A stretch of DNA of 64,000 bases. Origin: Sphingobacterium corticibacter (lineage in GTDB: Bacteria; Bacteroidota; Bacteroidia; Sphingobacteriales; Sphingobacteriaceae). Shown here piece after piece: positions 28,997 through 58,573 of the stretch (positions are counted from its first letter, which is position 1; each line of letters opens with the position of its first letter). The position numbers and the translations under genes are program-made. The notes beneath the pieces are model-generated. The model was not told where the DNA came from. It searched no databases and saw only the letters and a program-made list of their open reading frames with translations. The stretch lies in NCBI RefSeq assembly GCF_003076635.1, contig NZ_QDKG01000002.1:248001-312000 (forward strand). Reading direction: 5' to 3'.

Positions 28997-29000
28997 GGGG

Positions 29001-29075
29001 TGGAGGATACTGGGTTCGAACCAGTGACCCCCTGCTTGTAAGGCAGGTGCTCTGAACCAGCTGAGCTAATCCTCC
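29001..29075 (-). tRNA. tRNA-Val(TAC)
   Basis: 75 nt on the minus strand with a complete cloverleaf. The acceptor is GGAGGAT/ATCCTCC with discriminator A, the D-arm contains TAGCTCAG, the anticodon stem CCTGC/GCAGG encloses loop CTTACAA (anticodon TAC, valine GUA codons), and the T-arm contains GGTTCGAACC. CCA is not encoded. It is the promoter-distal member of a tandem pair. Confidence 0.96.
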
Positions 29076-29089
29076 TTTTTTAACTTTGG

Positions 29090-29164
29090 TGGAGAATACT
29101 GGGTTCGAACCAGTGACCCCCTGCTTGTAAGGCAGGTGCTCTGAACCAGCTGAGCTAATTCTCC
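29090..29164 (-). tRNA. tRNA-Val(TAC), second copy
   Basis: Identical to the neighbouring tRNA-Val except for acceptor pair 5:68, which is A-T here (GGAGAAT/ATTCTCC) and G-C in the other. Only 14 bases separate the genes, so they are processed from one precursor. Confidence 0.96.
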
Positions 29165-29180
29165 TTTTTGTTTGCGTGTG

Positions 29181-54836: not shown

Positions 54837-56024
54837 ATGACTTTAGCAGATTTTTTTCAACCGATAATCCTTTCTGAAATTACGTCTACGACAGATTTTC
54901 TTAATTCACAACTCGGCAAAACCATCACACGTTACGAAGAAAGCTTCCCTGATTTGGAGGATGCCGATACCAGACCGCATCTGGCTATTGTGGGCGTGGA
55001 AGAGGATCGCGCCGCGGTGAATAACCGTGGAACTGCGAAAGCACCGAACGAAGTGCGTAAGCATTTGTATGAACTCTATGAAGGCGATTATACGCTACGC
55101 ATTGTTGATTTAGGAAATATCAAAGCAGGTGCACGTATCGAAGATACATACGCGGCACTACGTAATGTGGTAGAGGAATTGGTGAAAATGCAGATCGTAC
55201 CCGTGATTATTGGTGGCGGACAGGATCTGACCTACGCACAGTATCAAGGTTATGAAAATCTAGAGCAAAAAGTTGAGGTAGCGGTGATCGATTCTCGATT
55301 TGACCTAGATCAAGAAAGTGATGAGAATACGACCTTGAACTCCACGACATATCTTAATCACATCATCTTGCACCAGCCAGATTATTTATTTAGCCTGAGC
55401 AATATCGCCTATCAAACGTATTTGGTGAGCAAGGAGTCAATCAACATGTACAATAAGTTGTTTTTCAACACCATGCGCCTTGGCGCAATTACCGGAAAAC
55501 TGGACCAGTCCGAACCCTTGATCCGCGCAGCGGATATGGTGAGCTTTGATATGGGTGCGATTCGCGCTTCGGAAGCAGGTGGCAATGCGAATGCAACACC
55601 GAATGGATTATATGGCGATGAAGCTTGTCAGCTAGCGCGCTATGCGGGCATGTCCGACAAATGTTCGTCGGTGGGATTCTATGAGTTCAACCCAACATTC
55701 GATCCAATGGGACATAGCGCGATGTTGGTCGCTCAGATGATTTGGTGTTTTGTAGATGGTTTCTATTCGCGTAAGGGCGATGCGCCAATGTACCCGAAAT
55801 CCAATTATATTATCTATCGCACTTCATTAGAAAGCGACGACTATGAATTGGTGTTCGTGAAGAGTAAAAAATCAGATCGTTGGTGGATGCAGGTTCCATA
55901 TTTCGGTACCAAATCGGTGAACGAACGATTTTTCTTGGTTCCCTGCCGATACGAAGATTATCAATTGGCCGTAGATGGCGAAATGCCGGATTTGTGGTGG
56001 CGTACACATCAGAAGTTACAGTAA
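54837..56024 (+). CDS. arginase/agmatinase/HutG-fold protein with degenerate metal site
   Basis: A 395-residue ureohydrolase-fold protein of the type labelled formimidoylglutamase in Bacteroidota. The three metal motifs are recognisable but altered: GGGH is GGGQD (Gln129), DAHxD is DSRFD (Asp152, Arg154, Asp156), and SFDxD is SFDMG (Asp238 kept, Gly240). At least three of the six usual manganese ligands are replaced, so classical dinuclear hydrolysis is doubtful. It has no signal peptide and no his-utilisation genes nearby. A near-consensus -7 box (CATCTTTG, 54776-54783) precedes it. Confidence 0.85.
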   Translation: MTLADFFQPIILSEITSTTDFLNSQLGKTITRYEESFPDLEDADTRPHLAIVGVEEDRAAVNNRGTAKAPNEVRKHLYELYEGDYTLRIVDLGNIKAGARIEDTYAALRNVVEELVKMQIVPVIIGGGQDLTYAQYQGYENLEQKVEVAVIDSRFDLDQESDENTTLNSTTYLNHIILHQPDYLFSLSNIAYQTYLVSKESINMYNKLFFNTMRLGAITGKLDQSEPLIRAADMVSFDMGAIRASEAGGNANATPNGLYGDEACQLARYAGMSDKCSSVGFYEFNPTFDPMGHSAMLVAQMIWCFVDGFYSRKGDAPMYPKSNYIIYRTSLESDDYELVFVKSKKSDRWWMQVPYFGTKSVNERFFLVPCRYEDYQLAVDGEMPDLWWRTHQKLQ

Positions 56025-56035
56025 GTGTTTTTATT

Positions 56036-56061
56036 CAAACTTTTTCTTGATAAAAAGTTTG
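56036..56061. terminator. hairpin after the arginase-like gene
   Basis: CAAACTTTTT (56036-56045), loop CTTGAT and AAAAAGTTTG (56052-56061), 12 bases after the stop. The stem is AT-rich and not followed by a clean T-run, so termination is plausible but not strong. It resembles the hairpin inside the 223-bp repeats. Confidence 0.5.
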
Positions 56062-56161
56062 GCAAAAATCAAGACTGCGTCCCTTACTGCTACCAGTCCT
56101 CAGAAATCCTAAACAAAACCACGAAGTGCTCAGCGCAGCTAAATAAACTCGCTACGCTCAA

Positions 56162-56384
56162 ACAGATTTTTGTTCTTTACGGATTTGCTTTCAGACGGCT
56201 GGACGTAGTCGGAACGCTAGGTCGGTTGAATCAGTAACTTTCCAACTCATAAAATGCCGCATTAGCGGATTGGCAATTGCACTAGGATGCACGGACGTTG
56301 TGCCAATACGGTCAGCGGCGAGGTTTTTGCATACTTTTTTACGGAGAAAAAGTATGAGCCCGCCCGGCTCGAGGGCAAGCACAA
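56162..56384. repeat. 223-bp tandem repeat, copy 1
   Basis: Runs from ACAGATTTTTGTTCTTTACG to GGGCAAGCACAA. It contains ATTGGCA ... TGCCAAT (56269-56275 and 56301-56307) and a 10-bp hairpin CATACTTTTT/AAAAAGTATG (56330-56356), followed by GAGCCCGCCCGGCTCGAGG. No plausible coding region: short frames across it lack start context and repeat with the unit. Confidence 0.9.
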
Positions 56385-56607
56385 ACAGATTTTTGTTCTT
56401 TACGGATTCCTTTCAGACGGCTGGACGCAGCCGGAACGCTAGGTCGGTTGAAGCAGCAACTCCCCATTCCGTCAAAATGCCGCCTTAGCGGATTGGCAAT
56501 TGCACTAGGATGCACGGACGTTGTGCCAATACGGTCAGCGGCGAGGTTTTTGCATACTTTTTTACGGAGAAAAAGTATGAGCCCGCCCGGCTCAAGGGCA
56601 AGCTCAA
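56385..56607. repeat. 223-bp tandem repeat, copy 2
   Basis: Same length and order as copy 1. The right-hand 120 bases are nearly identical. The left part differs most (ACTCCCCATTCCGTC where copies 1 and 3 have ACTTTCCAACTCAT), with one deletion balanced by one insertion. Confidence 0.9.
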
Positions 56608-56823
56608 ACAGATTTTTGTTCTTCACGGATTTGCTATCGGACGGCTGGACGCAGCCGAAACGCTAGGTCGGTTGAAGCAGTAACTTTCCAACTCATAAAA
56701 TGCCGCATTAGCGGATTGGCAATTGCACTAGGATGCACGGACGTTGTGCCAATACGGTCAGCGGCGAGGTTTTTGCATACTTTTTCGCGGAGAAAAAGTA
56801 TGAGCCCGCCCGGCTCGAGGGCA
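56608..56823. repeat. 223-bp tandem repeat, copy 3 (slightly truncated)
   Basis: Ends at GAGGGCA, seven bases short of the other copies, where a heptamer repeat begins. It is closer to copy 1 than to copy 2 in the variable left part. The hairpin spacer reads CGCGGAG where the other copies have TACGGAG. Confidence 0.9.
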
Positions 56824-56879
56824 ATACTAACATCTCAATACGCAATACTAATCTCTCAATACTAGATACTAACATCTAA
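56824..56879. repeat. degenerate heptamer microrepeat
   Basis: Eight consecutive 7-base units: ATACTAA, CATCTCA, ATACGCA, ATACTAA, TCTCTCA, ATACTAG, ATACTAA, CATCTAA. They also form a 21-base higher-order unit repeated 2.7 times. The array ends two bases before the ggt stop codon. Confidence 0.8.
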
Positions 56880-56881
56880 AA

Positions 56882-58573
56882 TCAATACCCCCTCGCTACA
56901 TCATCCCCGCGCGGATCTGCGCCAGTTTGCAATTTACCATTAGGCAACACAATAATATTCTCCACGCGACCGATATTTCCACGTTCGTGGAATTTGTAAC
57001 CAGCTTGCTCCAAGCTTTTGCGTGTATCAGCTTTGATAGCGGCATCTTCCACATCAATCTGATCGGGCAGCCATTGATGATGAAATCGCGAAGCAGAAAC
57101 CGATTCTTGCGCGTTCATCCCGTAATCGATCACGTTGGTAATGGTTTGAAATACCGATGTAATAATCGTAGAACCTCCTGGTGTCCCGACGACCATAAAT
57201 AGCTTACCTTCTTTCTCCACGATTGTTGGCGTCATCGAACTCAGCATGCGTTTATTTGGCGCAATAGCATTGGCCTTGCCGCCAACTAGGCCGTATAAAT
57301 TAGGCACGCCAGGTTTCACCGAAAAATCGTCCATCTCGTTGTTTAATAAAAAACCAGCGCCTTTTACCCACACGCCAGCACCGTAAGCGCCATTCAAGGT
57401 AGTGGTGAGCGAAACCGCATTGCCCTCTTTATCGACGATACAATAATGCGTCGTTTCTTCCGACTCGTAGCCCGCAAATTTAGATGCCAAAACTTCGCTG
57501 CTTGGTGTCGCTTTGGCGAAGTTGATTGCTTTCATGCGCGCTTTATTACGGTCATTATCCATCAATTCCTTCATCGGCACGCGATGAAAATCCGGATCGC
57601 CCATGTGCGTCGCGCGATCTGCGTAAACCCGTCGTTCGGCCTCTACAATCACGCGTACCGCGGAATCACTTTGAAAACCCCAATCGGTCAATGGATACAA
57701 CTCCACCGATTGCAATAAGGCAATTAGCGCCGCACCGCCACTCGATGGTGGTGGCATAGAGATCACGCGGTGACCGCGATACATTCCTTCTACTGGTTTG
57801 CGCCATACGGCTTGATAATTCTCCAGATCCGCTTTGCTCATAATACCGTTGCCACGCTGCATTTCTTTCACAATATGATCGGCGGTCTCGCCTTTGTAAA
57901 AACCATCCCGCCCTTCATTCGCTACGCGCTCCAAGGTGCTAGCCAATTCGGGTTGCTGAAATACATCGCCCTCTTTCCATGCTTCGCTACGGATAATCGC
58001 TGCGCCATCGACATTGAGTTTCGAAAAAAGCTCCTGATGTTTATTAAATTCGGCGGCTTGCATGCTCGTAATTTGAAAACCTTCTTTGGCGAGTTTAATG
58101 GCTGGCGCAACGAGGGCTTTCCAATCCATCGAGCCATATTTCTCGTGTGCAGCAACCATTCCAGCAACGGTGCCCGGTACGCCTGCAGCCAGCTGTCCAT
58201 ACAGGCTTAAATCTGTAATCGCATTCCCGTCGGCATCCAAGTACATGTCTTTGTCAGACTTTTCCGGCGCTTTCTCTCGAAAATCTAATGCATCTACATT
58301 GCCGTCATGACTTCTGTACAGCATAAAACCACCACCGCCGATGTTGCCCGCATTAGGATATACGACGGCCAAAGCAAATTGAACCGCAATAGCCGCATCA
58401 ATGGCATTACCGCCCTCTTTTAAGATTTGCACACCCACATCAGACGCCAATGGATGAGCTGCGACGACAGCACCGTGTTCGAATTCGTTTGTTTGTGCGG
58501 AATGCTGATTGTTGGAGTTCTGACACGAACTGAACAACAAGAACGCTATTAATAAGTGAGATAGTATTTTCAT
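56882..58573 (-). CDS. ggt: gamma-glutamyltransferase, lipoprotein form
   Basis: A 563-residue N-terminal-nucleophile hydrolase, made as a proenzyme that cuts itself before Thr374 (EETTHYCIVD). It transfers or hydrolyses the gamma-glutamyl group of glutathione in the periplasm. Other motifs are GGGGFMLYR-like GNIGGGGFMLY, LDFREKAP, PPPSSGGAALI, LLNNEMDDF and GTPGGSTIITSVFQT. It carries a lipobox (FSSC, Cys17), so it is membrane-anchored. Its leader and signal-peptide DNA closely resembles that of the ankyrin lipoprotein at 61250. Confidence 0.95.
   Translation of the reverse strand: MKILSHLLIAFLLFSSCQNSNNQHSAQTNEFEHGAVVAAHPLASDVGVQILKEGGNAIDAAIAVQFALAVVYPNAGNIGGGGFMLYRSHDGNVDALDFREKAPEKSDKDMYLDADGNAITDLSLYGQLAAGVPGTVAGMVAAHEKYGSMDWKALVAPAIKLAKEGFQITSMQAAEFNKHQELFSKLNVDGAAIIRSEAWKEGDVFQQPELASTLERVANEGRDGFYKGETADHIVKEMQRGNGIMSKADLENYQAVWRKPVEGMYRGHRVISMPPPSSGGAALIALLQSVELYPLTDWGFQSDSAVRVIVEAERRVYADRATHMGDPDFHRVPMKELMDNDRNKARMKAINFAKATPSSEVLASKFAGYESEETTHYCIVDKEGNAVSLTTTLNGAYGAGVWVKGAGFLLNNEMDDFSVKPGVPNLYGLVGGKANAIAPNKRMLSSMTPTIVEKEGKLFMVVGTPGGSTIITSVFQTITNVIDYGMNAQESVSASRFHHQWLPDQIDVEDAAIKADTRKSLEQAGYKFHERGNIGRVENIIVLPNGKLQTGADPRGDDVARGY

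Follow-up and report, generated by a model that had tools for sequence, protein, structure and literature searches.

Results and Discussion

A Tandem Array and a Related Half-Element Lie between Two Convergent Genes

The window analyzed here is a 64,000-nucleotide stretch of the Sphingobacterium corticibacter genome (G000). Between the convergent genes for an arginase-family protein (plus strand) and a gamma-glutamyltranspeptidase (minus strand), it contains a tandem triplet at 56159-56824, for which a repeat finder and TRF give 3.0 copies, 92% matches, and a period of exactly 223 bp, bearing out the three exact-period copies of the original prediction (Table 1). Among the three copies, 24 of 224 aligned columns are variable, 17 in the left 94 and 7 in the right 130 (Fisher p = 0.004), in agreement with the near-invariant right half and diverged left half described earlier; just 3 of the 24 fall inside a ∼105-nt hairpin core. 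The compensated indel reported for the left half is real and is carried by copy 2, which has one base missing near column 29 and one extra near column 93, and kinship among the copies is unequal, with copies 1 and 3 alike versus copy 2 at 12 of the 24 variable sites. The ATTGGCA/TGCCAAT motif and the CATACTTTTT hairpin noted in the conserved half are found in all three copies. The sole reading frame through the array is a 95-aa minus-strand ORF that runs across the repeat borders, and 223 is not divisible by 3; as had been stated, no coding frame explains the repeat.

Table 1. Features of the Array and Its Surroundings in the Window
Feature	Coordinates	Strand	Basis or remark
Left neighbor gene, arginase-family protein	54837..56024	+	PF00491, E 3e-24
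Type A hairpin P1A, CAAACTTTTT / AAAAAGTTTG, loop CTTGAT	56036..56061	+	Sequence, DNA fold; kept at the same site in G061
Type A spacer, GCAAAAA then TCAAG	56062..56073	+	Sequence
Type A long hairpin P2A, GACTGCGTCC (56073-56082) with GGAACGCTAGGTC (56211-56223)	56073..56223	+	DNA fold, window and G061 copy
Tandem copy 1	56159..56381	no strand	223 bp
Type B unit 1 (P1, A-run spacer, P2)	56252..56356	-	Model R1, 84.8 bits, E 1e-13; DNA fold
Small GC hairpin P0, then P1 T-run, terminator-like	56358..56380	-	Terminator scan, DNA fold
Tandem copy 2	56382..56604	no strand	223 bp; left part the most diverged of the copies
Type B unit 2	56475..56579	-	Model R1, 84.3 bits
Tandem copy 3	56605..56824	no strand	220 bp, end truncated
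Type B unit 3	56698..56802	-	Model R1, 83.9 bits; belonged to the training set of R1
Right neighbor gene, gamma-glutamyltranspeptidase	56882..58573	-	PF01019, E 6e-170

Folding of the conserved half as minus-strand DNA gives, in order, the small GC hairpin P0, the hairpin P1 (CATACTTTTT/AAAAAGTATG), CAAAAAC, and the hairpin P2, in which GCCGC/GCGGC forms the outer and ATTGGCA/TGCCAAT the inner stem; equivalents of P0 in the remaining two copies lie near 56578-56606 and 56802-56816. We refer to the ∼105-nt minus-strand unit composed of the A/T hairpin P1, an A-run spacer, and the long hairpin P2 as type B. Directly left of the array, at 56036-56223, lies a second, related hairpin module (type A), which also occurs elsewhere and shares the type B plan of T-run hairpin, A-run, and long hairpin. 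The TCAAG that follows the type A spacer is the complement of CTTGA in the P1A loop, and the same relation between loop and post-spacer bases recurs as CTTGAC/GTCAAG at two other loci (L259 and L010), making a pseudoknot or triplex clamp possible. The original prediction had left out the type A module and had not recognized that a larger element extends beyond the conserved half, which forms its minus-strand end.

Straight after the array (56821-56883), there are three degenerate 21-bp tandem repeats (AATACTAACATCTC...); an ATACTA-rich stretch that resembles them is also present inside the element linker of G061 (L176), the closest relative of the window's genome.

The Unit Belongs to a Dispersed Family with Recurrent Tandem Arrays

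A BLAST search with one unit returned, in its own genome, a single diverged copy plus another array of three copies with a period of 344 and, in further Sphingobacterium genomes, fragments of the same architecture whose inner stems differ widely; a unit-derived pattern matches S. gobiense, S. faecale, and S. haloxyli. The unit is a fragment neither of a known mobile element nor of an rRNA-linked spacer as far as these searches reached. With a covariance model built from 27 units, we scored 150 candidates per genome in a search of the genus and 14 per genome in a search of the order, so that the hit counts are lower bounds: units occur in at least 14 of 20 sampled genus genomes (at least 89 matches in the richest) and in at least 64 of 251 genomes of the order, from at least 6 of 16 genera, all of one family, that is, Sphingobacterium and five other genera. 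The window's genome has nine matches at five sites among the candidates scored. The conserved half, for which the original prediction had proposed such searches, is therefore a dispersed structured family, which the letters of the window could not show.

Inverted pairs are frequent among the units, with a start-to-start distance of about 160-170 bp. Other tandem arrays have periods of 148, 180, 241, 264, 266, and 344 bp, versus 223 bp in the window, each array having a period of its own. The presence of arrays at other loci with other periods makes tandem amplification a recurrent property of the family, and the array-specific periods fit local illegitimate duplication, possibly assisted by the fold. 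All-against-all BLASTP of the flanking ORFs gave no recurrent neighbor gene, and the gene context of the units (46 tandem, 16 divergent, and 13 convergent by crude ORF calls) is like that of ordinary intergenic DNA. Our literature searches did not find a published description of Sphingobacterium or Pedobacter repeats of this kind.

The Hairpins Probably Evolve as DNA Palindromes

Both-sided changes are seen at 27 of 28 base pairs across 108 distinct units, and the covariation score is 0.47 for the units, compared with 0.14 when shuffled and ≤0.08 when slid, in alignments that, like the model itself, are biased toward the assumed structure. The covariation repeats in an alignment of two genomes (A4; G060 and G032) for which the G060 rows and most of the G032 rows lay outside the model training set. 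Watson-Crick pairs fill 90.5% of the P2 cells, G·U pairs 1.2%, and mismatches 8.3%. The corresponding values for RNase P RNA of the same genus are 86.5%, 13.1%, and 0.5%, where the mismatch count, but not the G·U share, is lowered because RNAalifold picks pairable columns. Selection on an RNA structure should leave room for G·U pairs, and their near-absence in the face of covariation indicates that the unit evolves as a DNA palindrome; at the level of sequence, the evidence points to the conserved half being a DNA palindrome rather than an RNA. More generally, G·U content relative to a true RNA offers covariation screens a simple criterion for distinguishing RNA structures from palindromes in DNA.

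The original prediction had allowed for an RNA or protein target in the conserved half. The conserved structure stands; the RNA part fares poorly, given the scarcity of G·U pairs, the absence of a match to any curated Rfam family for the unit, and an RNA fold of one 223-nt unit that is no better than shuffles (z −0.9). These same data bear on a role as a structured non-coding RNA or 3′-UTR/terminator element, in which the transcribed hairpins would terminate transcription in both directions or stabilize the messages of the convergent genes. P0 and the P1 T-run do look terminator-like on the minus strand, and P1 often starts 1-10 nt past a stop codon, but the gene contexts given above show no 3′-end bias, and at L004/L176 the upstream gene has a GC terminator of its own ahead of the unit; we consider such a role very unlikely.

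Changes on both arms, which dominate in the units, could also be produced by mutation alone, with replication template switching copying one arm onto the other and keeping the palindromes perfect in the absence of any function or mobility; template switching is known to give compensatory changes without G·U steps (PMC8794818). It should, however, erase mismatches, whereas on inspection of alignment A2 a one-base bulge and the internal loop that separate the outer stem of P2 from the inner one hold their position while the stems change, which speaks against simple arm-to-arm correction. Nor would it account for the dispersal of the units, the empty sites, or the exchange of whole modules, loops included (see below), and we therefore give this explanation only a slim chance.

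The A-Runs of P1 and the Spacer Are Matched in Length

In 110 of 116 distinct P1-plus-spacer sequences, the A-run of the spacer equals that of P1 within 1 nt, and the lengths correlate with a Spearman coefficient of 0.75 across the 116 distinct P1 sequences, a value that none of 2,000 permutations within loop class reaches. The spacer and stem A-runs thus provide the three tracts of matched length that characterize intrastrand triplex repeats, and this suggests that P1 and the spacer may form an intrastrand triplex. Slippage or conversion between neighboring A-runs could also give rise to the match.

Close Species Differ in the Presence and Type of Units at Shared Sites

The DNA compared between G060 and G032 is about 95% identical. 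We looked in G032 for the flanking sequences of 25 units of G060 and could compare 23 loci; at 7 of these G032 has no unit, L203/L249 being a clean empty site. Among 18 pairs of units at shared sites, 5 are at least 89% identical and 13 only 45-82%, and the divergent ones are still well folded and lie within flanks that are mostly >90% identical. The pair L188/L266 has P1 and the outer stem in common and differs by a swap of the inner stem and its loop, and at L193/L256 one half is of type A in one species and of type B in the other, exchanges which imply that modules are replaced in place. The earlier suggestion that gene conversion keeps the tandem copies alike is plausible in light of such swaps.

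In G061 (94% protein identity), the window's site carries type A alone and no array; one unit was found genome-wide among the candidates scored, compared with nine in the window's genome, and the element at site L104 of the latter is missing. In the full/empty pairs L181/L248, L184/L260, and L203/L249, neither shared terminal inverted repeats nor a target duplication is clearly seen, and no exact insertion footprint is readable. The term “mobile” thus refers to presence/absence and replacement, and deletion plus gene conversion could lie behind much of that pattern.

The Family Resembles REPIN/BIME Elements but Is Not Accompanied by a RAYT Enzyme in Most Carriers Tested

The closest parallels are the REPIN/BIME elements, RAYT-linked REP doublets of Proteobacteria, which likewise form dispersed intergenic palindromes, inverted pairs with short linkers, mosaic families within a single genome, and tandem clusters (PMC3116915). 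As expected for REPs and REPINs, the copies are many, intergenic, and often arranged as inverted doublets. The half-units are, however, ∼105-118 nt long rather than 20-65, and they have a separate A/T hairpin and A-run. GTAG/GTGG is absent from the foot of the hairpins (CTC or ATC stands 5′ of P2, and the bases 5′ of P1 are variable), and no tnpAREP gene flanked by a unit was found by PF01797, at RAYT-like loci, or among neighbor genes. With neither the tag nor the transposase found, the family cannot be filed under REPs, even though it is REPIN/BIME-like in behavior.

RAYTs of subclass 2.6 come mostly from Bacteroidetes, and the atypical structures on their flanks recur at other places in the genome (PMC6006769). 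This host range and these flanks would suit a REP origin of the units, with a Bacteroidetes-type TnpAREP/RAYT as the mover that either works in trans or has meanwhile disappeared. PF01797 (Y1/RAYT) has no match, however, in the window's genome or in six high-copy genomes (G015, G032, G035, G014, G021, and G008). G020 does have two RAYT-like genes (L037 and L040; open frames of 187 and 215 aa), but both are flanked by distinct palindromes of their own, and no significant unit was found near RAYT-like loci, including these two. An enzyme of the Y1/RAYT type does not accompany the family in most carriers tested, and we regard this origin as unlikely.

Palindromic repeats without a dedicated transposase are known in Bacteroidetes as CGTC-tagged REPs (PMC3733652). 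The present family shares these traits, but no unpaired CGTC tag stands beside a short stem: the bases that correspond to it belong to the outer P2 helix, where they pair and change together, and the unit is several times longer. The TMECO repeats of E. coli are also intergenic, have three matched tracts, and are linked to genome instability (PMC4666352); their tracts are G/C, whereas those seen here are A/T and sit inside a larger hairpin element whose triplex is inferred. Insertion-sequence MITEs resemble the units in being short non-coding repeats at variable sites, but the units do not share a terminal inverted repeat, target duplications were not seen, and no parent transposase was found, consistent with the earlier statement that neither a transposase nor a terminal repeat explains the array. 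An attC-like integron site was also considered and dropped, no GTTRRRY/RYYYAAC boxes being seen by eye.

At L007:1200-1900 (G000:C4 ∼178,600-179,300), CGTCATTGCG-type repeats that resemble CGTC-REPs adjoin the 344-bp array; several palindromic repeat families thus share one gap.

A Probable Local Amplification of One Half of a New Element

The unit is a new, previously unnamed REPIN/BIME-like family of DNA elements in Sphingobacterium and its relatives, with stems that stay paired as their sequence is rapidly exchanged between species, and the array itself arose by ordinary amplification at the site. The array probably consists of three head-to-tail copies of one half of this dispersed, DNA-structured intergenic element, an origin that the window on its own could not reveal. 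We envisage that an A-B pair once stood at the site and that illegitimate recombination or replication slippage, favored by the fold-back structure, would have fused the B half, at its end, with an internal position of the A half, giving rise to the 223-bp triplication. The core would then have stayed alike because it would be recognized or maintained in a folded DNA form, a hairpin combined with an A/T triplex, and because of copy-to-copy replacement, while the linker between cores would drift.

A broader model, possible but on the doubtful side, is that a hairpin-plus-A/T-triplex element with a module-swapping hairpin would owe its spread, as well as its in-place exchange at gene borders, to some structure-reading system that is not a Y1/HUH RAYT, with the fold driving repeated local tandem amplification. 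In any case, Sphingobacterium and related genera gain a REPIN-like repeat family of their own, which lends itself to testing why both arms of a stem vary with no G·U steps, how units spread without a detectable RAYT, and by what means modules are replaced at fixed sites in species whose flanking DNA is ∼95% identical.

Additional Modules in and around the Units

A segment of ∼48 nt (CCCGCATCGAGAATAGTTTTGATG...) recurs at L203:1248-1616, L257:1023-1183, L009, and L024; at L203 and L257 it is nested in a P2 arm, and units thus carry further inserted modules. At L013, L018, L112, and L113, an extra hairpin (CGAACGAAGTGAGCTCATG...CATAAACC) is present between P1 and P2 of several units. Where P1 precedes a gene start (L125, L126, L130, and L114), a Bacteroidetes −7 box (TAnnTTTG) is often found just outside the unit, and, judging from these motifs, the ends of such units may fall between the two boxes of the promoter. 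Elsewhere in the window, at 28999-29169, there is a tandem pair of tRNA-Val (TAC) genes that are 97% alike.
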